NCBI RefSeq assembly: GCF_004138485.1
Contig: NZ_RYEV01000003.1
Location: 1,364,001 to 1,428,000 of the forward strand
From: Peristeroidobacter soli
Lineage (GTDB): Bacteria; Pseudomonadota; Gammaproteobacteria; Steroidobacterales; Steroidobacteraceae
Length of the DNA: 64,000 bases
Direction of reading: 5' to 3'
Shown here piece by piece: positions 11,437-35,010 of this stretch. The position numbers were made by a program, and so were the translations under genes. The notes under the pieces are model-generated. The model made no database searches and had not been told where the DNA came from. It saw nothing but the letters and a program-made list of their open reading frames with translations. Every line of letters begins with the position of its first letter. Position 1 is the stretch's first letter.

Positions 11437-11451
11437 AAATATATGTGAAAT

Positions 11452-16356: not shown

Positions 16357-16503
16357 TTACAAACCGAGATACGTATAAGTACAGCAGGAGTCCGGTACCA
16401 CCGGAACCTGGCCCGGCTGTTTCGTCTCCTTCATCGCATCTCCCAAATCAATCATCTCAATCCCTTGAACTTCGTCCTTCGTCGCCTCGATCTTCTCATT
16501 CAT
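16357..16503 (-). CDS. Lasso peptide precursor, orphan copy (A1)
   Basis: A 48-residue peptide gene, starting at ATG 16503 with AAAGGA 6 bases upstream. The acidic leader begins MNEKIEATKDEVQGIEMI and continues DLGDAMKETKQP. The predicted core is GQVPVVPDSCCTYTYLGL. Gly1 and Asp8 of that core could form the 8-residue isopeptide ring of a lasso peptide. Leader and core align with the second precursor at 34879: both have DLGDAM, ET followed by K or R, Gly, Pro at core position 4, Val at 6, Asp-Ser at 8-9. No maturation genes lie next to it, so it probably uses the B and C proteins encoded at 32-35 kb. It is convergent with receptor 1. Vicinal cysteines at core positions 10-11 are unusual. The exact leader cleavage site is uncertain. 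Confidence 0.85.
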   Translation of the reverse strand: MNEKIEATKDEVQGIEMIDLGDAMKETKQPGQVPVVPDSCCTYTYLGL

Positions 16504-16857
16504 GACGGTTCCTTTAAGGAATTATGACGACCTCCTGCCCGCCCGGTAGATAACCCTTCCTATTGGTTAACAGCAATACGTCGAGTTGCGGAGCTGAAAA
16601 ATAATAGTTCACACCCTCGGAAAAGGGGGGTTAAGCTCAGCACCTGATCCGGTCCATGTGGACAGAGACCCAAAGATCATCAGGACCTAGGTGCTTGGTT
16701 CGCCCTTGGTGGTTTGTAGTGGGCGTCATGGATGACGTCCGCTGCGAATCTTCGAGCCGGGCACCGCCTCGACGCGGAGAATTTGCAGCCCTTTCAGGGA
16801 GGATGGGGCTGCAAGCTTCCTCGGACCCACCGATGAAACCGCGATATTGCGGTCCGG
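16504..16857. other. Upstream region of precursor A1 and of the nuclease-helicase gene
   Basis: About 350 bases without a supported gene. The left part is the leader region of the minus-strand precursor. It includes GCAGGAGG (reverse complement at 16531-16538), 27 bases before the start codon; the same octamer lies 26 bases before the other precursor gene. The right part must contain the promoter of the gene at 16858. No further small precursor with the DLGDAM leader motif was seen here. Confidence 0.5.
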
Positions 16858-19800
16858 GTGCGGGTTGTACAGTCTGCGCCCCTTTCAATAAGCGCCGTCG
16901 GAACTCCCTTGCTCAAACGCGGCCGTGCGCTCCAGCTGAGCGCTTCCGATCTGGTGGGGTATCTCAACTGCCACCATCTGACCCACCTCGATGCCCAGGT
17001 CGCCGCCGGGATGCTGGCGAAGCCGCAGGTCTGGGATCCGTCGCTGGAAGTGCTGTGGGAGCGGGGCGCTGCGCATGAGCGGGAGTATGTCGAGCATCTG
17101 CGGGCGCGCGGCCTGACGGTCGTCGAGATCGAAGGGATCGGCATCGCGCCGGCGCAGGTCGAGCAAACGATGGCGGCCATGCGAGCGGGCGCGGAAGTCA
17201 TCGTGCAGGGCGCATTTCTGGATGGGGTGTGGAGCGGGCGAACGGACATCCTGCTTCGGGTGCCGAAGGCCAGTGCGCTGGGCGATTGGTCGTACGAGGT
17301 CGTCGACACCAAGCTGGCCAGGGAGACCAAGGGCGGCACGGTGCTTCAGCTGTGCCTGTACTCGGACTTGCTGGCGAGTGCGCAAGGGTGCGCGCCGGAG
17401 GCCATGTATGTCGTCACGCCGGGGCGCGGTTTCGAGCCTGAGCGCTACAGGGCGGCGGCCTATGCGGCCTATTACCGCCAGGTACGAGCGGAGCTGGAGC
17501 GGTCGCTAGCGGCGAAGGAGGCCGCGCCGACCTATCCCCAGCCCAAAGATCACTGCGACATCTGCCGATGGCGGCGAGACTGCGATACGCGGCGGCGGCA
17601 GGATGACCATTTGTGCTTGGTGGCAGGCATTTCCACAGCGCAGATTGCCGAGCTGGCCCGACACAGCGTCACAACGCTTGCCGGTCTGGCGCAATTGCCA
17701 TTGCCGCTGCCCTGGAAGCCCGAGCGCGGCCTCGCTCAGTCGTTCGAGCGAAGTCGTGAGCAGGCGCGCGTTCAATGGGAGGGGCGGCAGGGCGCGCGGG
17801 AAATCTATGAGCCGTTGCCGCTCGTGCCGGGCGCCGGGCTCCATCGGCTGCCGGAGCCATCGCCCGGAGACATCTTCCTCGACCTGGAAGCGGATCCGTT
17901 CGTTGGCGACGAGGGGCTGGAGTTCCTGTTCGGCTACGTCACCACCGAAGCGAGCGGGGCGCGCAACTACGTCGCCGAATGGGCGTTCTCGCGGGTCGAG
18001 GAGCGGCGAGCGTTCGAGCGCTTCGTCGATTTCGTCATGGCGCGGTGGGCTCAGTATCCAGGGCTTCACATCTATCACTACGCTCCCTATGAGCCGAGCG
18101 CGCTGAAGCGGCTGATGGGGCGATATGCGACGCGCGAGGACGAGATCGACCGCATGTTGCGTGCGTCGCTGTTCGTCGATCTCTACACGATCGCGCGTCA
18201 GAGCATTCGTGCCAGTGTGGAGCGGTACTCGATCAAGAATCTCGAGCCCTTCTACGATTTCAACCGCGGCGTGCCGCTGGTCGAGGTGAGAAGTGCGCTG
18301 GCGAAGTTGCAGGCACGCCTGGAGCTCGACGACGCGGCCGCGATCTCTGAGGAGTGCAAGGACATCGTGCGCCGTTACAACTGCGACGATTGTCTCTCGG
18401 CGCAGCGGCTGCGGGATTGGCTGGAGAAGATCAGAAGCGAAATGATCGCCAATGGCGCGGCGATTTCGCGACCGGCGGCGGAGGATCCGGAGCCATCGGC
18501 TGAGCTCGACGAACGTCAGCGTGAAGTGGCGGCGCTGGTGGCGCGTCTCACCGCCGACGTGCCGGCAGACACGGCGGAGCGCACGGCCGAGCAGCAGGCG
18601 CGCTGGATTCTCGCGCATTCGCTCGACTGGCATCGTCGAGAGTTGAAGTCGTCGTGGTGGGAATTTTTCCGCCTCGCCGAGCTGACGCCCGACGATCTGC
18701 AGGATGAGCGCTGTGGCATCAGCGGCCTGGTGTTTCGCGCGAGCGTCGGTGGGACGGCGCGGGCGCCGATTCATCGGTATCAGTTTCCGCCGCAGGAACT
18801 GGAGCTGAGCGAAGGCGACACGCTGCATCTGAGCCTGGAGCAGAAATTGGGAACGGTCGTGTCGGTCTCAGCCGAAAGCCGGACCATCGACATCAGGAAG
18901 CGTGGCGACTCGATCGCACTTCATCCGCAAGCGGCATTCGCGCATGACATGGTGCGCACCGGCGTGATGGCCGATGCATTGTCGCGGCTCGGAGCTCACG
19001 TCGCTGACAATGACATCGCGGGCATCGGCGCCTATCAGGCGGCGAGAGATCTCTTGCTCAACGTCCCGCCGCGCTTGGGTAACGATCCGCTGCAATTGAG
19101 CGGTGAGTCCGCGAGCGAGGCTGCGGTTCGCGTGGCGACGAAGCTTGCGAGTGGAGTCCTGCCGATTCAAGGCCCGCCGGGCGCGGGCAAGACGTTCACG
19201 GCGGCGCGGATGATTTGCGCGCTGGTGAAGGCGGGCAAGAAAGTCGGTGTGACGGCGAACAGTCACAAGGTCATTCGCAATCTGCTCGACAAGGTCGTGG
19301 AGCAGGCCGGTCGCATGCATATCGACGTTCAATGTTTGCAGAAGGTCGCCGACAAGGCGGCCGACGTGCCGGGCATTCGCTTCGAGACGGATAACGAGAA
19401 GGCGCTCGCTGCGCTCGGGGTCTCGTGTCAGGTGGTGGCGGGAACGGCGTGGCTGTGGTCGCGCGAGGATGCGTTCGAGGCCGTTGACACGTTGTTCGTG
19501 GACGAGGCGGCGCAAATGTCATTGGCCAACGTGTTGGCGGTGTCGCAGGCGTGCCGAGCGCTGGTATTGCTCGGCGATCCGCAACAGCTGGAACAGCCGA
19601 TTCAAGGCAGTCATCCGGAAGGAACCGACGTGTCGGCGCTCGAGCACGTGCTCGGCGGCGCGGCGACCATCGGCGAGGGGCAGGGCTTGTTCCTGGAAGA
19701 AACCTGGCGCCTGCATCCCGACATTGGCTCGTTTACCTCCGAGCTGTTCTACGAAAGCAGATTGGCGTGTCGCGCCGGTCTCAACCGGCAGGAAGTCACA

Positions 19801-20304
19801 TCAAGCGGTCGTATTCAGGGCACCGGATTGCGATTCCTCCCGGTGGTGCATGAGGGCAATCAGAACTCCGCGCCGGAAGAGGCCGAGGTGATTCAGCGGT
19901 TGGTCGAAGAAACATTGGCGGCAGGTGCCTCCTGGACCGATCGCGACGGCCGCTCGCGGCCCGTCACCATCGATGACATTCTGATCATCGCGCCGTACAA
20001 CGCGCAGGTGTTCGAGATTCAACGCCGCCTGCCGCGTGCGCGCGTCGGCACGGTCGATAAGTTTCAGGGACAGGAAGCGGCGATCGTCATGTACTCGGTG
20101 ACGACGTCGTCGCACGCCGATGCGCCGCGAGGCATGGAGTTTCTGTACAGCTTGAATCGTCTCAACGTGGCGGTGTCGCGCGCGAAATGTGTGTGCGTGC
20201 TGGTCGCGTCGCCTGCCATCTTCGAGCCCGCCTGCACGACGCCGCGGCAAATGGAATTGGCCAACGCGTACTGCCGCTATAGAGAGCTCGCCCGCCCGCT
20301 TTAG
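16858..20304 (+). CDS. RecB-like nuclease (TM0106 family) fused to RNase H-like and UPF1-type helicase domains
   Basis: A 1148-residue DNA-processing protein. The N-terminal third is a TM0106-type RecB/Cas4-like nuclease with VVDTKLARETKGG near 147 and four probable Fe-S cysteines: one in YLNCHHL near 38, and three in DHCDICRWRRDC at about 231-242. Next is an RNase H-like exonuclease domain (FLDLEADPFVGDEGLEFLFGY, about 340-360). The C-terminal half is a superfamily 1 helicase with Walker A GPPGAGKT near 772, Walker B FVDEAAQ near 880, and late motifs VDKFQGQE and NVAVSRAK. Such fusions are known but uncharacterised; roles in repair or defence are possible. The start is uncertain: GTG 16858, or TTG 16909 close to the first conserved block. 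Confidence 0.88.
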   Translation: MRVVQSAPLSISAVGTPLLKRGRALQLSASDLVGYLNCHHLTHLDAQVAAGMLAKPQVWDPSLEVLWERGAAHEREYVEHLRARGLTVVEIEGIGIAPAQVEQTMAAMRAGAEVIVQGAFLDGVWSGRTDILLRVPKASALGDWSYEVVDTKLARETKGGTVLQLCLYSDLLASAQGCAPEAMYVVTPGRGFEPERYRAAAYAAYYRQVRAELERSLAAKEAAPTYPQPKDHCDICRWRRDCDTRRRQDDHLCLVAGISTAQIAELARHSVTTLAGLAQLPLPLPWKPERGLAQSFERSREQARVQWEGRQGAREIYEPLPLVPGAGLHRLPEPSPGDIFLDLEADPFVGDEGLEFLFGYVTTEASGARNYVAEWAFSRVEERRAFERFVDFVMARWAQYPGLHIYHYAPYEPSALKRLMGRYATREDEIDRMLRASLFVDLYTIARQSIRASVERYSIKNLEPFYDFNRGVPLVEVRSALAKLQARLELDDAAAISEECKDIVRRYNCDDCLSAQRLRDWLEKIRSEMIANGAAISRPAAEDPEPSAELDERQREVAALVARLTADVPADTAERTAEQQARWILAHSLDWHRRELKSSWWEFFRLAELTPDDLQDERCGISGLVFRASVGGTARAPIHRYQFPPQELELSEGDTLHLSLEQKLGTVVSVSAESRTIDIRKRGDSIALHPQAAFAHDMVRTGVMADALSRLGAHVADNDIAGIGAYQAARDLLLNVPPRLGNDPLQLSGESASEAAVRVATKLASGVLPIQGPPGAGKTFTAARMICALVKAGKKVGVTANSHKVIRNLLDKVVEQAGRMHIDVQCLQKVADKAADVPGIRFETDNEKALAALGVSCQVVAGTAWLWSREDAFEAVDTLFVDEAAQMSLANVLAVSQACRALVLLGDPQQLEQPIQGSHPEGTDVSALEHVLGGAATIGEGQGLFLEETWRLHPDIGSFTSELFYESRLACRAGLNRQEVTSSGRIQGTGLRFLPVVHEGNQNSAPEEAEVIQRLVEETLAAGASWTDRDGRSRPVTIDDILIIAPYNAQVFEIQRRLPRARVGTVDKFQGQEAAIVMYSVTTSSHADAPRGMEFLYSLNRLNVAVSRAKCVCVLVASPAIFEPACTTPRQMELANAYCRYRELARPL

Positions 20305-20376
20305 GTCTTTCGGTCAGTGCTGCCATCGCCGGGCTTCTGGCATAAACCACGCTCTTCATGACTCAGGAGCGTCCCT

Positions 20377-21636: not shown

Positions 21637-21670
21637 CGCGTCGAGAGTCGATGGTTGAGGTTGAGGCGGT

Positions 21671-22663: not shown

Positions 22664-23173
22664 TAGCGCCGTTTCTTAGCATATTTCGCAACTCGAACAA
22701 CAAAGTCGCTAAGACCGGGCATCTCTGAGAGTTCATCTCTAGGCATTTTCCGAATTTGCCGCTATTTCGCCGAGGTCCTGAGGCGGCGTCTGGTAGTTTT
22801 TCCCAACCCTGTATCGCTGCGTATTGATCGGGATGCCATCCCGCGCATTGCGTCGCCGGCACCAGCATTGCAGGGAATATTTGCGGCGTCGAGGGCAGGT
22901 CGTTGGCGGCAGCGGCCTGATCCAAAGGGATTTTTCGGCGCCATCAGCGGAAAGTGGTTGAGGGAATCGGCCATGCATCAGTCTTCCTTTCTCTGTGACC
23001 ACCGACAGAGCCACACGTCGTGGTGTTGCTCGGCAAGCAAGCGTACGTAACAAAAAAATTACCGGCGCAGTTCCGGAGATCGCGCCGTTGGGAGGTAGGG
23101 GTGACGACAGAACAGGGTGGGACGTCGATGTCTCAGAGGTTTTCATCTTCAGGTTAACTACGGAGGGCGCACC
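22664..23173. other. Long intergenic region upstream of the GntR gene
   Basis: About 510 bases with no confident gene. On the minus strand, overlapping short frames of 70 codons (start 22974, stop 22762) and 79 codons (start 22978, stop 22739) lie behind AAAGGAAG. Neither product resembles a known family nor the lasso precursors of this region. The right part, rich in A/T around 23040-23060, should include the GntR promoter. No terminator of note was seen after the quinone reductase. Confidence 0.45.
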
Positions 23174-23899: not shown

Positions 23900-23911
23900 T
23901 GCTTGCGCTGC

Positions 23912-23938
23912 CTCCGGAGGCATTCTTCGCCTCCGGGG
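23912..23938 (+). terminator. Probable terminator after the GntR gene
   Basis: A GC-rich hairpin (23912-23921 with 23929-23938, one G-T pair, 7-base loop) starts 13 bases after the GntR stop. No long T tract follows. Confidence 0.5.
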
Positions 23939-24063
23939 GCTGGCCTCGCCCGCGCTCCCGGTCAGTACTTAATGACGGATCGCGCCGTGCCCGGGCACAC
24001 TGGCCCGGCGGGTGAGATAATCGTGGCAGGCAAGTCGCGTTGCTTCAGACATAGGGAAATCCA

Positions 24064-24678
24064 GTGATCGATCGCCACAAGCACCTGGAGCGGGGCGAGC
24101 CGGGGCGTACTTCTACACATGCGCCGCAACCCGATATCGCCGACCCGGACGTCGCGAGCTCGTTGATGGCCACCCGCAATGGCCGCATCACGCTGTGGTT
24201 CGATCGTTGGCGCAAGCCCATTCGCAGTTGGTTTTCCAGTCGCGCTTCGGTCCCGCGTGCCGAAGTCGACGACCTCGCCCAGGAAGTGTTTCTACGGCTG
24301 CTGCGTTATAGCGACGATGTCGCCGTCGAGAATCCGCAGGGTTATCTGTTCAGGATCGCCGCCAACGTTGCGAATGAATGGCGCGATCGTTCGCGCGTGC
24401 GCCAGCCGCACGATCGCAGCTGGCTCGATGAGCTGCAGGTCGATCCGGCCGATCAGCCGGACAATGCCGTTTTCCAGAATCGTGTCAGCAAACATCTGCA
24501 AAACGCGGTCAACCGCTTGCCGAAGCGGCAGCGTGAAGTGCTGTTGCTCCATGTCAATGAGGGCCTGACGTACAAAGAAATCGCCGATCGATTGGGTGTG
24601 ACTTACCGGATCGTTCTAAGGGATCTGACTCGCGCTTACGCCGCGCTGCGCATGCAGCTGAAGGCTGAAGACCTCTAG
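24064..24678 (+). CDS. FecI-like ECF sigma factor (second copy)
   Basis: A 204-residue ECF sigma factor closely related to those at 11712 and 27142. Region 2 reads EVDDLAQEVFLRLLRYSDDVAVENPQGYLFRIAANVANEWRDR and region 4 RLPKRQREVLLLHVNEGLTYKEIADRLGVTYRIVLRDL. GTG at 24064 is preceded by AGGGAAATCC. It is followed after 28 bases by a FecR gene, but there is no receptor directly downstream; the next two genes are both FecR-like. It may therefore respond to a receptor encoded elsewhere or share the receptor at 29147. Confidence 0.92.
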   Translation: MIDRHKHLERGEPGRTSTHAPQPDIADPDVASSLMATRNGRITLWFDRWRKPIRSWFSSRASVPRAEVDDLAQEVFLRLLRYSDDVAVENPQGYLFRIAANVANEWRDRSRVRQPHDRSWLDELQVDPADQPDNAVFQNRVSKHLQNAVNRLPKRQREVLLLHVNEGLTYKEIADRLGVTYRIVLRDLTRAYAALRMQLKAEDL

Positions 24679-24706
24679 GAAGCGCAGGCCATTGAGGGCA
24701 AGGGGT

Positions 24707-25759
24707 ATGAAACAAAGCAGCGACACCGAAATCGACGGGCTCTTGAGCGAGCAGGCGGCGGGTTGGTTCGTGCGGCTGGTGGCGAACGATCTGTCGGCGC
24801 GCGAGCGTCGCGAGTATCTCGCCTGGTTGAAGGCGTCCAGTCGCAACGTCGAGGCTCTGCTCGATATCTATCGCTATCACGGTTACGGGCGCAAAGCGAA
24901 ACTGCACATGCGCGTGTCGCCGGAGGGCGAGCCCGGCGAGAATGTGATTCCGTTCGGGCCGCGGGGTATGACGGTCGTACACAAGCAGACTCGACAGTTG
25001 AAGCGACGGCGCGCGCGACAGATGAAAGTCGCCGCGGCCATCGCCGGCATCCTGGTGACGATCGTCGCTGGCTGGACGCTGAAGGCGACGTATTTCGATA
25101 AGCGCATCGCCACCGGCCCGGGCCAGTGGGATCGCGCGATGCTCTCCGATGGCAGCGTGTTGCGCATCGGGCCGAACACCCGGTTGCGTTGGTCGTTCGA
25201 CCAGAATCAACGCACCATCGTGCTCAGCGAAGGCGAAGCTGTATTCGAAGTGGCGAAAGATCCCAGCCGACCATTCATCGTGACGACTCACGTCGGCGAT
25301 GTGCGCGCGGTGGGCACGGAGTTTGGTGTGTCGTTGATGAATGCATCGACCGCCGTCGTGACGGTAGCTCACGGCAAAGTTGCAGTGAGCAAACATGGTG
25401 ACGATCGTGTGACCACGATCAAACGTGCGGCAGTGGCGGAGCTGATCGAAGATCAGCAGATCGTTCTATCCGACGGCAACGCGCAGCCGGTGAAACAAGT
25501 CGACGCATCGCGCGAGTTGCAGTGGGCCACGGGTTACTACGAATTCCGCGGCGAAACGGTGCGCGAAGCCATCGAACAGTTCAATCGTCGCAATCGTTTG
25601 AAGGTGGTGATGTCCGACCCGGCCATCGGCGCGATTGCCATGCCCTTCACTACGGTAAAGCTGGACGATCCGGAAACATTCGTGCTGATGCTGGCAGCGC
25701 GTCCGGACGTGCAGGTCGCCTACGAGAGTGCGAACGTCATTCGATTATTGCCCGAATAA
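24707..25759 (+). CDS. FecR-like anti-sigma factor (second copy)
   Basis: A 350-residue inner-membrane anti-sigma or sigma-regulator. It has an N-terminal DUF4880-type domain (LLSEQAAGWFVRLVANDLSARERREYLAWLKAS, about 13-46) and one membrane helix at about 110-130 (VAAAIAGILVTIVAGWTL). The periplasmic FecR domain carries EGEAVFEVAKDPSRPFIVTTHVGDVRAVGTEF, and a C-terminal STN-contact region follows. ATG at 24707 follows GAGGG by 8 bases and is preferred over TTG at 24692. It pairs with the sigma gene just upstream. Confidence 0.9.
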   Translation: MKQSSDTEIDGLLSEQAAGWFVRLVANDLSARERREYLAWLKASSRNVEALLDIYRYHGYGRKAKLHMRVSPEGEPGENVIPFGPRGMTVVHKQTRQLKRRRARQMKVAAAIAGILVTIVAGWTLKATYFDKRIATGPGQWDRAMLSDGSVLRIGPNTRLRWSFDQNQRTIVLSEGEAVFEVAKDPSRPFIVTTHVGDVRAVGTEFGVSLMNASTAVVTVAHGKVAVSKHGDDRVTTIKRAAVAELIEDQQIVLSDGNAQPVKQVDASRELQWATGYYEFRGETVREAIEQFNRRNRLKVVMSDPAIGAIAMPFTTVKLDDPETFVLMLAARPDVQVAYESANVIRLLPE

Positions 25760-25942
25760 CGCGCCCGCCAAGATCGCTGCTTTGCAGCGTAACTTTCGTA
25801 TCCCGCCTGACGCTATTCCTAGGGATGGAGTACTGCTTTCGCCCGGTCTTCATTAGGCGCGGGGTACTCCACGGCTTACGGAAACGTAGTCACAGATCGC
25901 TAAACAGTTGCGCCTGTGAACTACTCAGCGGGGACCGGGAAC

Positions 25943-26983
25943 ATGAACCCAACACCAGAACAGCGTGCTGTGATCAGGCAGGCCGTGGAATGGCACCAAC
26001 TCGTCAACGACGGTGAGCTGGATCCGGTCTCGCGGCTCGAGTTTCGTACCTGGCTGCAGGCGTCGCCGAGCCACGTGCATGAGTTCGCGCGCATCTGCGC
26101 ACTCGAAGTGGTGTTGCAGGGGTCGTTGAAGAAAGGCGTGCCGCGCGCGCTGCCCGGCAATGTCATCAATTTCGATTCTTATGCCTGTATCACGCGACGT
26201 CCGCCGCCGCCGCCGCGGATGCCGACCGTGTCGCTGCGTTTCAACACTAAAAAAATTGCTATCGCGGCGAGTGTGGTGCTCGCGCTCATCGTGACGCTGT
26301 TCGCGAGCCTCGTGAGCACCGATAAAGTCATCGTGACTCAGCTCGGTCACTGGGATAAACAATTGCTGGAAGACGGCTCAGTGGTTTATGCCGGGCCGCG
26401 CACCAAGTTGCGGTTCCATTTCAATGGCGACGTGCGCGCAGTGAGACTGGTGCGCGGTGAGGCATTGTTTGAAGTTGCCAAGGAGCCCGGCCGGCCATTC
26501 ATCGTCTCGACGGACGCGGGCACAGTGCAGGCCGTCGGTACCGAATTCGCCGCGGCGGATCTCGGTGACACCGTGGTGGTTACGGTCGCGGAAGGGAAGG
26601 TTGTCGTGACGGCGACCGCAGTTCGTGATGGCGTGCAATCGATGACGCCGGTCGTCGCGGATCAACAGGTGGTGATGTCGCCGACCGGGGCCAGCGCGCC
26701 GGTGGGCGTCGATGCCAATCGCGAGCTGAAATGGATTCGCGACTGGTACGAATACGACGGTGAGCGGGTCGGCGACATCGTCGCTCAGCTCAATCTGCGC
26801 AACGACGTTCAGGTGATCGTCGACGATCCCCAGGTGGCGCGGCTGCGCCTGAATCAGCCGCTGACGTTCAAGCCCAGCCAGCCCGAGGACTTCGTGCGCA
26901 AGGTCAATCGCTGGTATCAGGACTATCCCCAGAAAACCGGTGGCCAGGCTGGTGCGAAGGTTCTGCATCTGGAACGGTCGTAG
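25943..26983 (+). CDS. FecR-like protein without a cognate sigma gene
   Basis: A 346-residue protein with the same plan as the other FecR proteins: DUF4880-type N-terminus (QAVEWHQLVNDGELDPVSRLEFRTWLQASPSHVHEFARI), a membrane helix at about 105-125 (IAIAASVVLALIVTLFASLV), a FecR domain (RGEALFEVAKEPGRPFIVSTDAGTVQAVGTEF) and a C-terminal domain. ATG at 25943 follows GGGGACCGGGAA. Unlike the other three FecR genes it is not preceded by its own sigma gene: a 183-base gap separates it from the previous FecR. It could be a second regulator for the sigma factors at 24064 or 27142, or a decoy. Confidence 0.88.
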   Translation: MNPTPEQRAVIRQAVEWHQLVNDGELDPVSRLEFRTWLQASPSHVHEFARICALEVVLQGSLKKGVPRALPGNVINFDSYACITRRPPPPPRMPTVSLRFNTKKIAIAASVVLALIVTLFASLVSTDKVIVTQLGHWDKQLLEDGSVVYAGPRTKLRFHFNGDVRAVRLVRGEALFEVAKEPGRPFIVSTDAGTVQAVGTEFAAADLGDTVVVTVAEGKVVVTATAVRDGVQSMTPVVADQQVVMSPTGASAPVGVDANRELKWIRDWYEYDGERVGDIVAQLNLRNDVQVIVDDPQVARLRLNQPLTFKPSQPEDFVRKVNRWYQDYPQKTGGQAGAKVLHLERS

Positions 26984-27090
26984 GCGGTTCGCCTTCAGGT
27001 TCAGCCCTCCGATTCGACGTAATCCCTGATCGCTTCCGGCCGGGGGCGCCGGAGGGATGATTCGCGCCCGTGATCCAGTCATCTAGCCGT

Positions 27091-27108
27091 GGGGGAATGG
27101 TTTCCCCC
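27091..27108. terminator. Short hairpin upstream of the third sigma gene
   Basis: A 7-bp stem (27091-27097 with 27102-27108, 4-base loop) lies between the orphan FecR gene and the sigma gene at 27142. It could end the upstream transcript or act as a leader element; no T tract is present. Confidence 0.35.
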
Positions 27109-27141
27109 TCAGACAGTTAGCCTCAGGCGCCAGAACGCTCA

Positions 27142-27777
27142 GTGATCGATCGGCAGAAGCAGCAGTTGCAAGAGGAAGATCGTTGGAATTCGTCCAGGGA
27201 GGATGAACAGCGCGAGCCGGAGGGCTGTCGCCCCGAAGAAGCCGAGGGCCAGCAGGCTCGTCCGCGTCACAGCCGCGACGGTCGATTGATCGAGTGGTTC
27301 GGCAAGTGGCGCAAGCCGATCCGCAGCTGGCTGCGCAATCGCGCCTCGGTGCCGCCGGGTGACATCGACGATCTCGCCCAGGAAGTGTTCCTGCGGCTGC
27401 TTCGCTATAGCGACGATGTCGCCGTCGATAACCCGCAGGGCTATCTGTTCCGGATTGCCGCCAACGTCGCCAACGAGTGGCGCGAGCGCTCCAGGGTCCG
27501 CAAGCCGCATGACGACAGCTGGCTGGATGAGTTGCAGATCGAGGCCGGCGATGAGCCGGAAAACGCGTTCGCCAAGACGCGGGCCAATGAATACGTGCAG
27601 GCGGCCGTCGATCGGCTGCCGCCACGGCAGCGTGAGGTTTTGTTGTTACACGTGAACGAGGGGCTGACCTACAAGCAGATCGCTCAGCAGAGGGGACTGA
27701 CGTATCGGATCGTATTGCGCGATCTCACACGTGCCTACAGTACGTTGCGCATGCAATTGCGACTGGAGGACCTGTGA
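27142..27777 (+). CDS. FecI-like ECF sigma factor (relay module 2)
   Basis: A 211-residue ECF sigma factor. Region 2 has DIDDLAQEVFLRLLRYSDDVAVDNPQGYLFRIAANVANEWRER and region 4 RLPPRQREVLLLHVNEGLTYKQIAQQRGLTYRIVLRDL, nearly identical to the copy at 24064. The N-terminal 50 residues are a variable, charged extension. GTG at 27142 matches the conserved start of its paralogues. It overlaps the FecR gene at 27774 by 4 bases, and the STN-type receptor at 29147 follows, giving a full relay operon directly next to the lasso biosynthesis genes. Confidence 0.93.
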   Translation: MIDRQKQQLQEEDRWNSSREDEQREPEGCRPEEAEGQQARPRHSRDGRLIEWFGKWRKPIRSWLRNRASVPPGDIDDLAQEVFLRLLRYSDDVAVDNPQGYLFRIAANVANEWRERSRVRKPHDDSWLDELQIEAGDEPENAFAKTRANEYVQAAVDRLPPRQREVLLLHVNEGLTYKQIAQQRGLTYRIVLRDLTRAYSTLRMQLRLEDL

Positions 27778-29018
27778 ACACTCCAATGGACGACGACGAG
27801 GATTTCGGAATGAAAGGAAGCCTGAGCCACCGGGCCCATGAACGGGCCAGCAAAGAGTCGTTGAGCAACGAAGCCGCCGAATGGTTCGTGCGCCTGCGCG
27901 ACGACCGGCTCGGTGCACGCAATCGCGAGCGGAATGTTCGCTGGTTGAAGGAATCGCCGACTCATATCGCCGAGCTGCTCCGGATCCAGCAGGTTTATCA
28001 GGCGCTGCGCGCCGCCAAGGTCGTCAATCGTTCGCCCAGGACGGGCGACCCCTCGAACATCATCGAGCTGGGCGTGCAGCGTGAGTCCGAGCCGCCCCCT
28101 TTCGACTCATTCGCCGACGAGCCGGCCCGGCGCCGGCCGCGCGTCGAGACGTGGAAGATCGCCGCCGCGGTGGTCGGTCTCACGATGTCCTTTTTCCTGG
28201 GCTTCATGGCCAAGGTCGCCTGGCTCGATCGCACCATCGAGACCGAGCTGGGCGAGTGGCGGACCGTGTCGCTGACCGATGGGACGAGGGTCCGGCTCGG
28301 GCCGGCCTCGAAATTGAAAGTCGCGTTCGGTGACGATCACCGCACGATCCGGTTGATCCAGGGCGAGGCGAGGTTCGATGTCGCCAAGGATCGCACGCGA
28401 CCGTTTTATGTTGAGTCGGAGATGATCGGCGTGCTCGCGGTCGGTACGGAGTTCCGGGTCTCGCGGCTCGGCGGCAAGGATGTGGTTGCGGTCACCGAAG
28501 GCAGCGTCGCGCTCTATCGCGACGGCCGCGATGCCATCCGAGGCACGGTGACCACCGCGCCGGCGCAACTCGCTGAAGCAACCGGAGGCGTTGCGCTCGC
28601 CGCGGGTGAACAGGTGTCCATCACGCGGGCCAGCCGCGCGCAGCCCGTTGCTAAAGAAAAGGTAAACCTGGATTACGAGCAGGCCTGGGCCGAGGGCTGG
28701 CTGGTGTATGAAAACAAGACGGTCGCGGAAGTGGCCCGCGACTTCAATCGGCTCAATCGGGTGAAGATCGTGATCGGCGAGCCGTCGATTGCCGCGCGTC
28801 GCCTGGCCTTCTTCCGGGTCAGCGCCACCGATCCTGAATCGTTTGTCGGGGCGCTGGCGACCAGTCCCGACATCGTGATCGTGCGGAACGTTCCCGATGT
28901 GCTGCGTATCGAGTTGCGTCGAGGCGTGTCGGCAGCGACGCTGCCCGGTGCCGAAAGTTCCGAATCCAATCACGGTGGCGGCAATGTGCCGCCGACCGTC
29001 AATCCCAATCCGATCTGA
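27774..29018 (+). CDS. FecR-like anti-sigma factor (relay module 2)
   Basis: A 414-residue FecR protein. The cytoplasmic DUF4880-type domain (about 25-75) contains LSNEAAEWFVRLRDDRLGARNRERNVRWLKESPTH. A membrane helix lies at about 125-148 (IAAAVVGLTMSFFLGFMAKVAW). The FecR domain has QGEARFDVAKDRTRPFYV, and the C-terminal STN-interacting region is longer than in its paralogues and ends in a Ser/Asn/Pro-rich tail. GTG at 27774 overlaps the sigma stop. It should transmit the signal from receptor 2 to the sigma factor at 27142. Confidence 0.92.
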   Translation: MNTPMDDDEDFGMKGSLSHRAHERASKESLSNEAAEWFVRLRDDRLGARNRERNVRWLKESPTHIAELLRIQQVYQALRAAKVVNRSPRTGDPSNIIELGVQRESEPPPFDSFADEPARRRPRVETWKIAAAVVGLTMSFFLGFMAKVAWLDRTIETELGEWRTVSLTDGTRVRLGPASKLKVAFGDDHRTIRLIQGEARFDVAKDRTRPFYVESEMIGVLAVGTEFRVSRLGGKDVVAVTEGSVALYRDGRDAIRGTVTTAPAQLAEATGGVALAAGEQVSITRASRAQPVAKEKVNLDYEQAWAEGWLVYENKTVAEVARDFNRLNRVKIVIGEPSIAARRLAFFRVSATDPESFVGALATSPDIVIVRNVPDVLRIELRRGVSAATLPGAESSESNHGGGNVPPTVNPNPI

Positions 29019-29146
29019 AGATATATTTTCGCTCGGGGTTGCTCCCTAGGTAGCAAAGTCTCAGCGCATCGCGACGCCTTGCGGTAGATTCCCAGTCATC
29101 AGCGGCGGGGCAGCGGCCCCGATGTCAAAGGGAATTTGCTGGGGAG

Positions 29147-32100
29147 ATGGTCGCGAAACAGGTCATCGCCGGACTCGTGGCGGCCGTTGTTGCGGGCTGC
29201 TGGTGGCCCGACCGCGCGCCCGCTCAGAACACGCACGAAGACGCGCGCACCGCTCAGGAATACACGCTCGATATTCCACGCCTGCCCATCATCGAGGCGC
29301 TGAAGGAATTCACGACCCAGACCGGCCTGCTGATCAGCTTCTGGCCGGATCCACAGACCGATCAAACCCGGTTGGTGGGACCCTTGCGGGGCAAGTTCAC
29401 CGCGGAAATCGCACTGACCCGGCTGCTGGCGGAGAGCGGTCTGGTTTACCGCCGGACCAACGCGCGTTCGCTGGTCGTCATGGCGCCGTCGCTGCTCGGC
29501 GCGCCTCGTAACGGTGTGACTGGCTCCGACGAGGATCGCAGCCGTCTGGCGGAAGGCCAGATCTATCTGCAAAAGAAACATCGACCGCTGGAGCCTGGCA
29601 TGGCCGCGGCCGGTCAGTCGGGTTCGGCCGCGATGATCGGCGCGCCTACGTTCGATCATGTCGACGAAGTGATCGTCACCGGTTCCCGCATCGAGCGTAC
29701 GGGTGAAGGTCCCGCGCCGGTGCAGGTGTTCACGCGCCGGATGATCGAAGAGCTCGGCGCGTCTTCCATTCCCGACGTTTTACGCTATACGCCACAACAA
29801 CCATTTACTCGCGCGGAGCATTATTACAGCGGCGGTGCGCAGTACTCACAGATGCGCGGCATCGGCATCGATACCACGCTGGTTCTCATCAACGGGCGAC
29901 GCGTCGTTCCCACGTCGAACAGTCTGGTGCTCAACGCGTTCGACTTGAACAGCATTCCGCTCGCTGCGGTGGAACGGGTCGAGGTGCTGTCGGACTCTGC
30001 TTCGGCCATTTATGGCGCCGACGCCATGGGCGGCGTGATCAACGTGGTGTTGAAGAAAGAAATCTCGCAGCCCGTGCTCGACATGCAGTATGGCGGCGCC
30101 AGCGGTGGCGCGGATATGGCGCGCGGGTCGTTCAGTGCCGGTTATCAAACCGAGCGACTGCGAGCCTCGGCAATTTTCGACTACTACCAGCGGGATTTTC
30201 TGTTGGGATCTGAGCGCGGCCTGTGGAGCGATCAGGATTACACGCGCTATGGCGGTGTCGACTATCGGTCTGTCGCGGGTGTTCCAGGAACGGTGAGCTC
30301 ATTGCGCGGCGACAATCTGCCAGGGTTGTCATCGTCCTTCGCGATGGTGCCTGAAGGCAGCAGTGGCATCGGACTGACGCCGCAGGACTTCGTCGCAACC
30401 GCGGGCGTTCGCAATTACACGAGCACCGCGAGCGCGCTGTCCATCGTGCCGGAGGCCCGGCAGCGCAGTGTGGCGCTATTTGGTGAGTACGATCTGACAC
30501 CGGTGCTGACGGCGTTTGCGGAAGTGCTCTACACCAACCGTCAGACTGCCTCACAGGAAGGTCTCCATACGCTGCAGGGCGCACTGGTGCCGGCAAACAA
30601 TCCCTTCAATCCGTTCGGCCAGCCGGTGCGGGTCGATGTCATTCTGAATGGCCTCGAGCCGCGTCGCTTCGAACACGATACTGAGTGGCTGCGGGGCGCG
30701 TTCGGGCTGCGAGGTCCGCTGATTTCCAGCTGGGAATGGGAAGTGGCGGGATTGATCAGCACCGAAACCGGCGACGCTCTGAGCACCGTCGATCTCAACA
30801 GTCAGCGTGTCAGCGCGGCGCTCGCGGCAACCGATCCGGCGCGCGCGTTGAATCCTTTCGTAGACGGTCCCGCCGGCAGTCCGGAGCTGCTGGCCTCGCT
30901 GATTGAACCAGATCACGAACGTCATCTCTCGCGTGGCCGGCAGCTGTCGGCGTTCTTGCACGGCGAGTGGCTCGAGTTGCCAGCGGGTCCCATTCGAGCC
31001 GTGGTGGGCGGCGAATGGCGCGATGAAAAAATGATCTATGACGACCAGACGTTGCCGGTCGACGACGGCCGCGACATGCGGGCTGCCTTCACCGAGCTGC
31101 GAGTGCCGCTGCTGGCAAGCTCGGTTACGGATCGCGACGATGTGCTGTCGCTCACGCTGGCCGCACGGCTCGACAATTACAGCGACTTCGGCAGCTCGCT
31201 GAATCCGCAACTCGGATTGATGTGGCGGCCCGTCGAGGACCTGCTGCTTCGTGGCTCCTATAGCACCAGCTTTCGCCCGCCTTCGCTGTTCGAGTTGCAC
31301 GCGCCCCGCACGACCGTGGCGTACCCGGGCATCCCCGATCCAGCACGCAACGATTCAGTGAGCCCGGTGACGTTTGTTACCGGTGGCAATCCCGATCTCC
31401 AGCCGATTGAAGCGAATTCGATGACCGCCGGCTTCGTGTGGTCGCCGCGCGCGCTGCCGGGTCTGCGGCTGCTGACGAGCTACTGGAAGATCAGCACCGA
31501 TCATCGCGTCACGTTCGTGCATTTCTCCACGATGCTCGCCAACGAGGAAGCGTTCCACGACCGCATCGTGCGCGATGTTCCAACCGAGGCCGATATCGCC
31601 GCGGGCATTCCGGGCAGGCTGCTGCAGCTGGATATTTCCCGAATGAATTTCGGACGCCTCACCACGAGTGGCATCGACGTGGAGGCGAAGTATGAATTGA
31701 GCACGCACTGGGGAGAGTTCACGCCGCGGCTGTCCGCCACGTGGGTCAAAGAGTTCAGCGCTGTCGACGTGCCGAGAACCGCTGCTGTCGACCGCGTCGG
31801 TGTCGCGAATGCCGGCGGCTCCATACCGAGGTGGCGTGTCGTTGGCAGCGTGGGCTGGAAGCGCAACGGCATTGGTCTGTCGACTACCGTCGACTGGTTG
31901 CCAGGTTATATGGATGCGACGACGGTCGGACTCACGGGGCGCCGCTTGTCTTCGCGCACGCTGGTGGATCTGCAGGCGAGCTTCGCGGTGGACGAGATGA
32001 TCGGTGCCGGGCCGATGTGGGATGACTTGAAGCTGCAGCTGGGTGTCAAGAATGCATTCGACCAGACGGCGTCGTTCGCCGATATCGGCTATTCATCGGG

Positions 32101-32167
32101 TTTCGATTCTTCGCAAGGCGATCTGATCGGTCGCTTCAGTTATCTGCGCCTGTCCAAGGGCTTCTGA
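29147..32167 (+). CDS. TonB-dependent receptor with STN signalling domain (receptor 2)
   Basis: A 1006-residue outer-membrane transporter-transducer. It has a signal peptide (about 1-26), an STN domain (about 42-108), an unusually long linker of about 60 residues, a plug (about 175-300, with MRGIGIDTTLVLINGRR and SDSASAIYGADAMGGVINVVL), and a barrel ending LRLSKGF. It is a close paralogue of receptor 1. Its stop codon lies 5 bases from the convergent stop of the lasso cyclase gene, an extremely tight arrangement. In other proteobacteria receptors of this type sit beside astexin- and caulosegnin-like lasso clusters and are thought to import the peptide. That the peptide made here is its ligand is inference. 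Confidence 0.93.
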   Translation: MVAKQVIAGLVAAVVAGCWWPDRAPAQNTHEDARTAQEYTLDIPRLPIIEALKEFTTQTGLLISFWPDPQTDQTRLVGPLRGKFTAEIALTRLLAESGLVYRRTNARSLVVMAPSLLGAPRNGVTGSDEDRSRLAEGQIYLQKKHRPLEPGMAAAGQSGSAAMIGAPTFDHVDEVIVTGSRIERTGEGPAPVQVFTRRMIEELGASSIPDVLRYTPQQPFTRAEHYYSGGAQYSQMRGIGIDTTLVLINGRRVVPTSNSLVLNAFDLNSIPLAAVERVEVLSDSASAIYGADAMGGVINVVLKKEISQPVLDMQYGGASGGADMARGSFSAGYQTERLRASAIFDYYQRDFLLGSERGLWSDQDYTRYGGVDYRSVAGVPGTVSSLRGDNLPGLSSSFAMVPEGSSGIGLTPQDFVATAGVRNYTSTASALSIVPEARQRSVALFGEYDLTPVLTAFAEVLYTNRQTASQEGLHTLQGALVPANNPFNPFGQPVRVDVILNGLEPRRFEHDTEWLRGAFGLRGPLISSWEWEVAGLISTETGDALSTVDLNSQRVSAALAATDPARALNPFVDGPAGSPELLASLIEPDHERHLSRGRQLSAFLHGEWLELPAGPIRAVVGGEWRDEKMIYDDQTLPVDDGRDMRAAFTELRVPLLASSVTDRDDVLSLTLAARLDNYSDFGSSLNPQLGLMWRPVEDLLLRGSYSTSFRPPSLFELHAPRTTVAYPGIPDPARNDSVSPVTFVTGGNPDLQPIEANSMTAGFVWSPRALPGLRLLTSYWKISTDHRVTFVHFSTMLANEEAFHDRIVRDVPTEADIAAGIPGRLLQLDISRMNFGRLTTSGIDVEAKYELSTHWGEFTPRLSATWVKEFSAVDVPRTAAVDRVGVANAGGSIPRWRVVGSVGWKRNGIGLSTTVDWLPGYMDATTVGLTGRRLSSRTLVDLQASFAVDEMIGAGPMWDDLKLQLGVKNAFDQTASFADIGYSSGFDSSQGDLIGRFSYLRLSKGF

Positions 32168-32172
32168 AATCC

Positions 32173-34029
32173 TCAGGCGGGTTGCGGCCGGGCGTTGCCG
32201 AGCCAGTGACGCGCCCAGAACTCCGAATCCAGATGCCGGAAGATCTCGCCCGGAAAGACCGTGTTCTTGGTCGGGCGGGACGACAGCACTTCCTCGAGTA
32301 GCGGCCGGTTCAGCAGGCCATGGCGCGCCAGCACGCCTTCCAGCAATGTTTCTTTCAGGAACGGGCGCTCGCGCTCGAGCAACTGATCGTGAAAGCCCGG
32401 CGCGCGATCCTTCCACAGACGACGCAGGATGGGCTCCGGAACGTCCGTGGCGAACGCCATGCGCGCCAGACCCCGATCGCGGCCACCATGGAAATGAGTG
32501 TGGATCGGAATCCGCAACAGCACTTCGATCGACGGCTGGGAATACAGCGGTGAGACGCTCTCCGCAACGGGGGAATGGGTGGCGGCGGTCACGGTGTAGT
32601 TCTCGGGCGCCATCATCAATGTGCCGATGCGCCGGATCTTGTCCCAGGGCACGCGGCGCTGACCTTGAAACCACGGATGAGACACGGCGTCGTGACCTCG
32701 AAAGTCCTGTTTGAGCTCGGAGCTCACCAACTGGCTGGCCTCGAGGATGCGGGCAGTCGGTATGCCGGTCTCCTGGTCGGAGACCAGGCGCCGGAGCGCG
32801 GTCGTCAGCACGGTCCAGCTGGATTTTTCGGTGAGCAGCGCCACTTGCGAGGCGAGCTGGAACAGGCGAGGCGCGATGCCGTGCGTCCTCAAGTATTCGG
32901 ACACGGCGTAGCCGATCGAGTCGCTGCAAAAACCCGAGTCGCCCCCCTCGCCGTTGAAGATCGCGGTGGCCTGGGTTTGCCCCAGCAGTTGCGGTTCGAC
33001 GCAGCTGCGCTGAATGAAGCCGAGCAGCGGCGAAGGCTCGGGAGACGGCGGCATGCGCAGCCCGAGCGTCAGATCCAGATCCAGCGCATGCATCGGAGCT
33101 TCGATGTGCTCGCATCCGGCGTGACCGGCGGCGAGCCGCGCCCACGGGCGCTCATCGGAGCGACCGGTCGGGCTGAAGTAAGTGTAGGCGGCGAAGCGTG
33201 CCGAGGTGCCCTTGAGGCAGCCGGCGATGATGGAGGAGTCGAGCCCGCCCGACAGCCTCAACAATATGGAGCGATGCAATCGCGCCAGCCCGGTGGTGGC
33301 GCTCTTGATCACACACTGCATGGCGCGAGCGGCGGTTTGCGGATCTTCGATCAGATCCCCGGCGCCGGTGTAAGTCAGCGGCGTCCAGTACATCTTGCGG
33401 GTGCTGTGCCAGCCCGAGCTGTCTTTCTGGAATTCGATGCACTCACCCCGTCGCACCGGCGATGCTTCGTTGAGCGACGAGGCATTCTGCAAGCTGCTGC
33501 CGGCCATCATGTGCGCGCGCAGGTATGCCTCGTTGACGGTGAAGCGCAGCAGTCGCAGATCGAGACAGTCGCCGATGCTGGAGAAGAACAGGCTCGCGCC
33601 ACGAAAGTCGGTGCGCAGGCACGGCAACGATCCGGTCGGATCCTTGAGGACCCATTGGCAGTCGCCGGTTGCGTCGCGGCCGAACGCGACGTAGTCGCCC
33701 CACGCATGATCGATCAGCCATCGGCCGCGACTCTGCACGAACGATGCGCTTTGTGCCGCGCCGAAATGAAATAGCTCATCCGGTGTCGGCGAGAACAGAT
33801 CCCGACTGCGAGTCAGCAGCGTGCCGACGACGATGCCGCCATTGCCATCGACGCGATGGATCTGCACGGCCTGGTCGCGCACGCCGATGCAGAACACTTG
33901 CAGGCCCGGCGCGGAATAGTGCTGTTGCCATTGCGGCGACAGTTGTCGCAGGCGCTCGGCGACCAGTTGCACGGCTTCTTGTTGAGGTGCGCTCGTGCGG
34001 TCCCACACCATTGCGAGATATCGAAACAT
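32173..34029 (-). CDS. Lasso peptide macrolactam synthetase (C protein, asparagine-synthetase-like)
   Basis: ATP-dependent cyclase of about 618 residues that adenylates the Asp/Glu side chain of the core and joins it to the core N-terminus. The N-terminal glutamine-amidotransferase-like domain begins MFRYLAMVWD and has no nucleophilic Cys2, as usual for lasso C proteins. The synthetase domain has the PP-loop LRLSGGLDSSIIAG (about 258-271) and the conserved NGEGGDSGF block near 370. ATG at 34029 follows AGGAG at 7 bases; an in-frame GTG lies 6 bases upstream. It is the last gene of the A-B-C unit, 16 bases after B, and is convergent with receptor 2. Confidence 0.93.
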   Translation of the reverse strand: MFRYLAMVWDRTSAPQQEAVQLVAERLRQLSPQWQQHYSAPGLQVFCIGVRDQAVQIHRVDGNGGIVVGTLLTRSRDLFSPTPDELFHFGAAQSASFVQSRGRWLIDHAWGDYVAFGRDATGDCQWVLKDPTGSLPCLRTDFRGASLFFSSIGDCLDLRLLRFTVNEAYLRAHMMAGSSLQNASSLNEASPVRRGECIEFQKDSSGWHSTRKMYWTPLTYTGAGDLIEDPQTAARAMQCVIKSATTGLARLHRSILLRLSGGLDSSIIAGCLKGTSARFAAYTYFSPTGRSDERPWARLAAGHAGCEHIEAPMHALDLDLTLGLRMPPSPEPSPLLGFIQRSCVEPQLLGQTQATAIFNGEGGDSGFCSDSIGYAVSEYLRTHGIAPRLFQLASQVALLTEKSSWTVLTTALRRLVSDQETGIPTARILEASQLVSSELKQDFRGHDAVSHPWFQGQRRVPWDKIRRIGTLMMAPENYTVTAATHSPVAESVSPLYSQPSIEVLLRIPIHTHFHGGRDRGLARMAFATDVPEPILRRLWKDRAPGFHDQLLERERPFLKETLLEGVLARHGLLNRPLLEEVLSSRPTKNTVFPGEIFRHLDSEFWARHWLGNARPQPA

Positions 34030-34045
34030 CGCCACGCTCCTGCGA

Positions 34046-34777
34046 CTAGATCGCCAGAATCGGTGTGTATTCGCAAACCTGTTCTGGATTGGCGTCGAGG
34101 AGCAGTGTCCCTTGCTGTACCCAGCTGTGTGCCGCCCATGGCTTGGTGCGCACGCCGATGACCCAGGTCGGGTACACGTCGTAATAAGCGAGGAAGCGGA
34201 CCAGCGCCAATGCGTGGAACAGACATTGGTCGCGGGCCGCGAAAGTGTGTGGACGCAGTCGGCGAAAGATGCCGACCAGCTCGATCGCGCGTTCGTTGTC
34301 GAAGGGCGCGCCGGCGGCGTTCTTCTGTCGCCCGAGCTCTTCGGCCACCAGAAACAACGTCCGCGATCGCACCGAGCTGCGGGCCCAGGTGCAGGCGCGC
34401 AGGAAGCTGACCAGGTGTCGCCAGCGAATCGGCGCTTTGCGATCCACTTCGTGACCGACGCTGGTGAGCAGACTGTTGAGGTCCACCTGCGTGGGGGTGA
34501 AGGCGGCGGCTTCGGGAACGCTGTTGCTGAGCAGCCCGGCCTGGACCAGCTTGTCCGCGATGCTCATGGCATCGGGTGGCGGCAACGGCTCGGTGTCGCT
34601 GGCAAAACTGGCGGCGGAAAGACTCTGCCAGTTGCCGGCCAGGGTGCGCAGCGCCGTGGTTTCCTTGCGGCCGACGCCGAAATATCGATTGCGCCGCAGG
34701 TCCAGCAGCACAGTGCCAGTTGCTGTCGAGCACGCCCGGACGTGCGACGGCAGCCAGTACGCTTTTTCGGTGTGCAT
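34046..34777 (-). CDS. Lasso peptide leader peptidase (fused B1-B2 protein)
   Basis: A 243-residue proteobacterial-type B protein. The N-terminal 85 residues form a PqqD-like RiPP recognition element (B1) that binds the leader (TGTVLLDLRRNRYFGVGRKE). The C-terminal part (from about 110) is a transglutaminase-like cysteine protease (B2) that removes the leader. The catalytic triad is visible: Cys185 in RDQCLFHALAL, His217 in AAHSWVQ and Asp228 in LLLDANPEQV. It lies between the precursor gene (101 bases upstream) and the cyclase gene (16 bases downstream). Because it reads only the leader, it could also process the orphan precursor at 16357. Confidence 0.93.
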   Translation of the reverse strand: MHTEKAYWLPSHVRACSTATGTVLLDLRRNRYFGVGRKETTALRTLAGNWQSLSAASFASDTEPLPPPDAMSIADKLVQAGLLSNSVPEAAAFTPTQVDLNSLLTSVGHEVDRKAPIRWRHLVSFLRACTWARSSVRSRTLFLVAEELGRQKNAAGAPFDNERAIELVGIFRRLRPHTFAARDQCLFHALALVRFLAYYDVYPTWVIGVRTKPWAAHSWVQQGTLLLDANPEQVCEYTPILAI

Positions 34778-34804
34778 GGCTATGGCCCGGTTCTTGTCTC
34801 AACA

Positions 34805-34825
34805 GGGCTCGCGAGACGCAAGCCC
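34805..34825 (-). terminator. Hairpin between the lasso precursor and the B gene
   Basis: An imperfect 9-bp stem with one C-A mismatch and a 3-base loop (34805-34813 with 34817-34825) sits in the 101-base space between precursor A2 and gene B. Hairpins at this place in lasso operons are known to raise precursor mRNA over enzyme mRNA. Here that role is inferred from position. Confidence 0.5.
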
Positions 34826-34878
34826 TGCGCATCGACGTTGGACGTCAATGGTTCAGCCTGTCCTTGAGGGATGTCCCA

Positions 34879-35010
34879 TCAAGGCACTCTTTCCCCCAGC
34901 AAATAGTACGAATCGAAAACGATCGGATACATACCGCTTTCCCGGGTCTCGAGCATCGCATCGCCCAGATCCAGCAGCTCGATGTCCATTCCTTCTTCCA
35001 GTTCCGTCAT
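34879..35010 (-). CDS. Lasso peptide precursor (A2), first gene of the A-B-C cluster
   Basis: A 43-residue peptide, ATG at 35010 preceded by GAGGGAAAG. The leader reads MTELEEGMDIELL then DLGDAMLETRES, and the predicted core is GMYPIVFDSYYLLGERVP. Gly1 and Asp8 would close an 8-residue ring around the C-terminal tail; the aromatic pair at 10-11 or Arg16 could be the plugs. Leader and core align with the orphan precursor at 16357. In known relatives such as astexin the leader has Thr at -2, but here Thr is at -4 from the Gly; cleavage after Arg would give a core starting with Glu and Asp at position 10. The position directly upstream of B and C supports the call strongly. Confidence 0.9.
   Translation of the reverse strand: MTELEEGMDIELLDLGDAMLETRESGMYPIVFDSYYLLGERVP

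Follow-up and report, generated by a model that had tools for sequence, protein, structure and literature searches.

A 64,000-bp stretch of the Peristeroidobacter soli genome (the window) encodes two lasso peptide precursors (A) and, beside only one of them, the lasso biosynthesis proteins B and C. From a comparison across the genus we conclude that this enzyme pair is probably a hub serving dispersed modules, each consisting of a precursor gene without adjoining enzymes (an "orphan") and a TonB-dependent receptor gene. The hub model is supported by the positions of the genes, a common leader, counts of B genes, synteny, the pairing of precursors with receptors and a fragment of a C gene. We infer processing in trans, the cleavage site, the ring and the receptor–ligand match from sequence.

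The window (G000:C2:1364001-1428000) comes from a source genome of 9.37 Mb in 17 contigs (G000), which is one of the 14 genomes of the genus set. The set also includes Steroidobacter agaridevorans SA29-B (G115), Peristeroidobacter agariperforans KA5-B (G106), Steroidobacter gossypii S1-65 (G074), the metagenome-assembled genome (MAG) ZC4RG14 (G003) and two Steroidobacter MAGs, MAG-237 (G129) and RBC007 (G135).

Precursors, enzymes and receptors

The genes on which the argument rests are the following.

16357-16503, minus strand: orphan lasso precursor A, 48 aa, translation MNEKIEATKDEVQGIEMIDLGDAMKETKQPGQVPVVPDSCCTYTYLGL; orthologues in G115, G106 and G074
16420-16503, minus strand: orphan leader, placed by the rule that Thr stands at position -2
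16360-16419, minus strand: predicted orphan core QPGQVPVVPDSCCTYTYLGL, placed by the same rule
13475-16297, plus strand: TonB-dependent receptor of the orphan locus (Pfam Plug, TonB_dep_Rec)
34879-35010, minus strand: cluster lasso precursor A, 43 aa, translation MTELEEGMDIELLDLGDAMLETRESGMYPIVFDSYYLLGERVP; orthologues in G115, G106, G074 and G129
34942-35010, minus strand: leader of the cluster precursor
34882-34941, minus strand: predicted core of the cluster precursor, ESGMYPIVFDSYYLLGERVP
34046-34777, minus strand: hub B, lasso B protein with leader recognition and leader peptidase in one chain (NCBIfam lasso_biosyn_B2)
32173-34035, minus strand: hub C, lasso C macrolactam synthetase (PF00733 Asn_synthase)
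29147-32167, plus strand: TonB-dependent receptor, tail-to-tail with C-B-A (Pfam)

An initial annotation of the window had described two short precursor genes on the minus strand, about 18 kb apart with unrelated genes between them, and only the second next to B and C. Both ORFs translate as it described, both peptides contain the shared DLGDAM, ET[KR] and G..P.V.DS letters, and the family matches agree on the position of the enzymes. Each precursor is preceded by a purine-rich stretch, a possible ribosome-binding site, and at E 0.001 neither gave a match in Pfam or NCBIfam. Hub B scored 61.7 bits with NF033537 (lasso_biosyn_B2; cut-off 33) and hub C 73.7 bits with PF00733 (cut-off 21), as expected for the enzymes of an A-B-C lasso cluster. 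The N-terminus of hub B (residues 11-59) reached 24.4 bits with a PqqD-type model, below its cut-off of 70, and hub C stayed below the cut-offs of the NCBIfam lasso cyclase models (NF033561, 44.8 bits, cut-off 300). C185 and H217 are invariant across 15 aligned B proteins and SGGLDSS across seven aligned C proteins; a sequence search for a PDB relative of hub B returned none. The orphan locus contains neither B nor C and so lacks the gene adjacency of the A-B-C type.

With the orphan peptide as query, four places were found in its own genome, including itself. Since the matches include a third precursor on contig C7 (E 7.4e-5) and the cluster precursor (E 1.1e-4), the likeness of orphan and cluster precursor exceeds chance; a match at C2:545833 is weak (E 1.77). 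Among 150 genomes of the family the same query matched in six, all within the genus. The DLGDA motif at the DNA level occurs at 39 places in the genome and its reversed-pattern control at nine, and we dropped it as stand-alone evidence because it discriminates poorly.

The search of the 14 genus genomes, made with an alignment of 12 sequences and E values up to 0.1, gave 26 precursors with the hub leader (...DLGDAxxET[KR]) in ten genomes; this set leaves out a match at G028:C1:2389609 (E 0.087) and any precursor of the G135:C156 B/C locus. They are distributed as five each in G115 and G106, four in G000, three each in G074 and G135, two in G129 and one each in G003, G028, G044 and G085. The initial annotation had counted two in G000; of the four, one has its own C and no B. 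All 26 have the leader G and T and the core D, and in the DLGDAxxE motif the letters D, L, D, A and E are conserved at 90% or more. Outside the genus, no precursor match was found at E 0.001 in the remaining 203 of 217 family genomes, and in an order-wide draw of 396 genomes (E 1e-4) the nine genomes with a match all belong to the genus.

Of the 26 precursors, 15 have no adjacent B and 13 have neither B nor C. Two stand beside C only (G000 C7 and G129 C49) and 11 beside B, including the G135 C43 precursor, which adjoins a piece of B at a contig end. B genes were searched in all 14 genomes, and again with the B2 family model in six. G000, G115, G106 and G129 have exactly two each, one hub B (85-100% identical to the window's B) and one divergent B (32-37%); in G074 the hub B is accompanied by three divergent ones. 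Four were found in G135, one of them the contig-end piece (three by the B2 family model). Thus G000, G115, G106, G074 and G129 each carry two to five hub-leader precursors and one matching B. The four genomes without a B match, one of which is 75% complete, are also without a precursor.

The initial annotation had further proposed that a leader search in related genomes would show whether the orphan position is conserved. It is conserved in G115, G106 and G074, with nearly all of the intervening genes. The order shared by the window and these three genomes begins with a gene that we take to be LipDH-like, followed by FecI, FecR, TonB receptor and orphan precursor, and continues with a helicase, a hypothetical gene, GntR, further FecI/FecR genes, the second TonB receptor, C, B and the cluster precursor. 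Between the hypothetical gene and GntR lies presumably an oxidoreductase gene, unmatched at that place in G074, where a weak match (33%) precedes the helicase instead. The distance between the two precursors is about 20 kb in G115 and G106, and in G074 about 24 kb.

Hub clusters are ordered as the receptor followed by C, B and A on the opposite strand. At all 13 orphans the 3′ end of the precursor lies at the 3′ end of a TonB receptor gene, so the place of C and B is closed up; five of these pairs overlap, by at most 57 bp, and in the others the gap does not exceed 132 bp. In the window the two genes are tail-to-tail with 59 bp between them, an arrangement repeated in three other species. Intermediate states were found at the locus type of contig C7: G000 and G129 have A and C there but no B, and G115 and G106 have the orthologous receptor and A but no C. 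The G106 locus (L119) retains a 24-codon C stretch with 58% identity between receptor and A (E 4.5e-5 when searched against 13 short stretches; E 0.003 among loci), and this remnant is the only C fossil that we count. Matches to B or C at the other orphan loci all have E > 0.1 and were taken as chance. The simplest history would be that the orphan loci are former A-B-C-receptor loci that lost B and then C, and kept precursor and receptor.

A candidate C remnant at L117 was rejected, as the match covers nine residues (E 0.02) and falls within an inverted repeat that precedes the likely C start. This GC-rich inverted repeat follows the precursor gene in L032, around CCGGGTGCAT...ATGCACCCGG and just upstream of the likely C start, and recurs in L117 and L119; it is retained even where C is lost, and is possibly a terminator or a processing hairpin. 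In G085:C37 (L130), a cyclase match at about 11347-12834 contains two in-frame TGA codons, and that cluster may therefore be broken.

We built a tree of 29 receptors, 25 of them beside hub-leader precursors and four beside divergent enzyme sets. Five clades with support of 1.0 each correspond to one core type. Receptor distances correlate with core distances (Mantel r 0.71, 25 pairs, p 5e-5, 20,000 permutations; the G135 C93 precursor is left out, as its contig holds no receptor), which fits ligand–receptor modules and would also arise from plain linkage.

Proposed processing, core start and ring size

In the proposed mechanism, B would use an RRE-like region at its N-terminus to bind the leader (...DLGDAxxET) and would cut two residues after the conserved Thr. 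C would then activate a conserved Asp (position 10, or 9 or 8 in some precursors) and join its side chain to the new N-terminus, which is Gln1, or Glu1 in the window's cluster precursor, to give a threaded ring. The window orphan and the other scattered precursors would use the hub B and C in trans through the same leader. In paeninodin, according to the cited part of PMC5067487, the B1 protein has nanomolar affinity for the leader and does not bind the core by itself. The neighbouring TonB receptor probably takes up or senses the peptide of its own orphan, and FecI/FecR genes near the receptor would, judging from their neighbourhood, regulate the module.

The initial annotation had placed the core start at a Gly, with an eight-residue ring. 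We rejected this because that Gly is present in only nine of the 26 precursors, being Leu in the G129 orthologue of the cluster precursor (...ETKQWLLWPIWFDS), and because the Thr would stand at -4, not -2. This Thr is invariant (26 of 26), and lasso precursors are recognised by Thr at -2 together with Asp or Glu at core positions 7-9. Two residues after it the hub set has Gln in 21 precursors, Glu in three, including the window's cluster precursor, Gly in one (G044) and Cys in one (G135 C43). Counted from this start, the last candidate acid is at position 10 in 20 precursors, 9 in five and 8 in one; in four of these 20 a further acid stands at 7, and both window precursors have an acid at 10 only.

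Precursors of the divergent enzyme sets, for which short ORFs were kept solely where they adjoin a B gene, offer a comparison. In these eight, the residue after Thr-x is G (five), A, T or D; the position of their acid is partly by construction, since seven were found by a pattern requiring an acid at core 7-10, a pattern that left residue 1 free. On the Thr(-2) rule, the residue counts, these position-1 residues and the precedent of metanodin (a lasso peptide from a Steroidobacterales soil metagenome), we favour Gln1 (Glu1 in the window's cluster) as the core start, given the hub model.

The same hub could also cut one residue later, after Gln and with Thr at -3, to give mostly nine- or eight-residue rings. 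Gln would then be a conserved -1 residue, and since the last candidate acid is at 9 or 10 from Gln in 25 of the 26 precursors, ring sizes would stay at 8 or 9 and within the described range. We consider this later start unlikely, if the most serious competitor to Gln1, because the residue that follows varies freely and in three of the 26 is Pro, which lacks a primary amine. In addition, the position taken by Gln can be Gly or Cys in the hub set and G, A, T or D in the divergent set, and Thr at -2 is the rule stated for metanodin in the cited section of PMC12670498.

With Gln1 as the start, mostly ten-residue Gln1-Asp10 rings are predicted. The passages on ring size in two reviews (PMC8498205, PMC9266682) give 7-9 residues for lasso rings, and one of the two mentions a ten-residue-ring analogue made in vitro with the fuscanodin/fusilassin enzymes. 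That analogue is the sole mention of a ten-residue ring in the cited parts of the papers, which name no natural one, and a natural ten-residue ring is a prediction here that, if true, would widen the described limits of the lasso fold. The full combination, in which one B/C pair serves two to five scattered precursors per genome, the orphans are locked to receptors and the rings are mostly of the Gln1-Asp10 type, is offered as a tentative scheme.

Other readings of the orphan precursors

Several observations weigh against the hub model or its modules. The G129 and G135 assemblies are fragmented, and the contigs of two orphans are short (G115:C19, 7.7 kb; G135:C246, 8.4 kb). Agreement between receptors and cores is also expected because neighbouring genes are linked; the nearest receptor and the nearest core agree in 14 of 25 cases, and in a sixth receptor clade (G044, G085, G028 and G003) the cores are barely similar. 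No FecI/FecR match was found at three orphan loci (L117, L119 and L046). The receptor beside the G106 C12 orphan is missing its N-terminal half, so this module may be decaying. Codon changes in the window orphan and the presence of a second enzyme set, taken up next, belong here as well.

The orphans could be non-functional leftovers of broken clusters, as the C remnant and the half-missing receptor at the G106 C12 locus and the remnant of an ABC exporter beside the window's cluster would suggest. The orphan's codons also point partly in this direction. In the eight-codon block from its core Asp (DSCCTYTY), G000 and G115 differ by five silent and one replacing change, but the pairs with G074 differ by one to three silent and five or six replacing changes, and the 18-codon leader block has zero to five silent versus two to seven replacing changes among six species pairs. 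These changes do not appear clearly biased towards silent ones, and the counts are very small and therefore no proof of constraint. Nevertheless, the frame, start region and leader letters of the orphan are intact in four species, and each of the five receptor/core groups is found in at least two genomes, which makes decay of the orphans as a whole quite improbable.

A second possibility is that the orphans are processed by the divergent B/C set. In G000 its B gene (C2:1056425) lies about 340 kb from the window's set, beside an isopeptidase gene, in a divergent lasso cluster (L003, G000:C2:1046000-1065999) whose precursor, MIKLGKVSQETRDTKFLTDPETDGLPQIFF, would have Asp at core position 1. All six genomes that carry two or more hub-leader precursors also have a divergent B/C set, whose leaders show the same G-x4-ET spacing as the hub leaders. 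However, the divergent B genes of G000, G115, G106, G074, G129 and G135 C82 each adjoin their own C and a precursor with a differing leader, I/VKLGKVS[QK]ET[KR] in G000, G115 and G106 (IKLGKVSQETR in G000) and VVLGKASEETR in G129, not DLGDA..ET[KR]. At position 1 the divergent cores of G000, G115, G106 and G074:C27 carry D, G, G or T, and at position 9 they carry Glu, whereas the orphans agree with the hub cluster precursors in the leader as well as in the Gln1 / Asp9-10 pattern. Processing by the divergent set is thus very doubtful. The claim of the initial annotation that the same enzymes process both window precursors stands in that the leader is shared, five genomes have one matching B each and the orphan position is conserved; the divergent set makes the hub pair the likeliest enzymes and not the sole option.

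It is highly improbable that the short peptides are signals or regulators of the adjacent FecI/FecR/TonB system that are never made into lassos: although all 13 orphans touch or nearly touch a receptor gene and FecI or FecR genes occur at several loci, the peptides keep the lasso features common to the A-B-C cluster precursors (Thr, one residue, then an Asp 8-10 residues further along), and in each of the 14 genomes precursor and B either both occur or are both missing.

Known systems and neighbouring genes

Scattered substrates of one enzyme are familiar from the prochlorosins, in which one promiscuous ProcM acts on many precursors with a common leader, some of them encoded away from the enzyme gene. 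Prochlorosins differ in their lanthipeptide chemistry and cyanobacterial hosts, and we know of no receptor gene paired with each of their precursors. Among lasso peptides, the caulosegnins have Gly1. Caulosegnins I-III of Caulobacter segnis resemble the present system in that three precursors depend on one enzyme set; unlike here, all three lie in one cluster and have rings of 8 and 9 (cited part of PMC13352647).

Clusters of the isopeptidase type, such as those of astexin and sphingopyxin, have sigma/anti-sigma and TonB-receptor genes beside A-B-C (as described in the cited sections of PMC9266682 and PMC5067487). The window's cluster likewise has a TonB receptor and a FecI/FecR pair. It differs in having no isopeptidase above the cut-off beside it, and in that precursor–receptor pairs occur apart from B and C. 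None of the seven G000 matches above the NF033523 cut-off falls in the window, weaker matches having been seen only in part; in 14 control genomes ten gave matches below this cut-off and none above it.

Metanodin (BGC 89) comes from the same taxonomic order, and the cited parts of PMC12670498 describe it as a classical A-B-C cluster; some members of its group also have a peptidase gene in inverse orientation. As predicted for the hub set, its conserved Thr stands at -2 and position 1 is not Gly: MS/MS supports Asn there, and a Steroidobacteraceae relative has Gln. We interpret its ring as nine residues from nine linear forms. In contrast to the system described here, one precursor stands beside B/C, and those parts report no dispersed precursors. 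The metanodin precursor was missed by antiSMASH annotation, which helps the view that ordinary gene-cluster searches likely miss orphan precursors too. In open-access literature on lasso precursors, ring size and Steroidobacter, the present arrangement is not described among the matches listed, as far as those texts were covered; subscription papers fall outside this scope.

Multi-precursor clusters are thus already known, and lasso biosynthesis here most likely takes the form of one enzyme hub with scattered precursor–receptor modules. Lasso mining looks for A beside B/C, and 15 of the 26 precursors have no adjacent B. If the trans model is true, lasso peptides are more numerous than genome mining suggests, and natural B/C enzymes of this type tolerate widely differing cores. 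Every orphan core would then also have its probable receptor encoded beside it, so that the role of TonB-linked lassos becomes directly testable.

The regulatory genes of the two window loci are the following.

11706-12329, plus strand: FecI-type ECF sigma factor of the orphan locus (Pfam Sigma70_r2/r4); syntenic in G115, G106 and G074
12326-13468, plus strand: FecR anti-sigma factor of the orphan locus (Pfam FecR)
24064-24678, plus strand: further FecI-type sigma factor upstream of the cluster (Pfam); syntenic in G115, G106 and G074
24692-25759, plus strand: further FecR (Pfam)
25916-26983, plus strand: further FecR without its own sigma gene (Pfam)
27142-27777, plus strand: FecI-type sigma factor of the cluster (Pfam)
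27774-29018, plus strand: FecR anti-sigma factor of the cluster (Pfam)

The region 24064-29018, upstream of the cluster receptor, thus holds two FecI/FecR pairs separated by an additional FecR and is syntenic in three other species. On the other side of the cluster, 35247-36137 (plus strand) encodes an ABC-transporter ATPase domain; no membrane domain was matched in it. Its matches cover only 28-40 residues in G115 and G106 and larger pieces in G074, and it is apparently an exporter remnant. An IS200-type (Y1_Tnp) protein adjoins the hub cluster (36233-37240, minus strand) and includes a DnaA-C-like HTH stretch (28.9 bits, below cut-off). In G115, G106, G074 and G129 its identity is 96-97%, against 56-89% for the cluster's A, B, C and receptor, and homologues (41-67%) occur beside lasso loci in G135, G028 and G044. 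We regard it as a conserved, slowly changing neighbour that is perhaps domesticated.

One of the seven G000 isopeptidases above the NF033523 cut-off adjoins the divergent B/C set. The other six (L141-L146; C5:648002, C1:144868, C5:426252, C3:1226204, C1:212274 and C8:340804) have no lasso B or C match within the 20 kb around them. FecI, FecR and TonB-receptor matches occur nearby, and these six loci appear to serve the import and opening of lasso peptides that are produced elsewhere.

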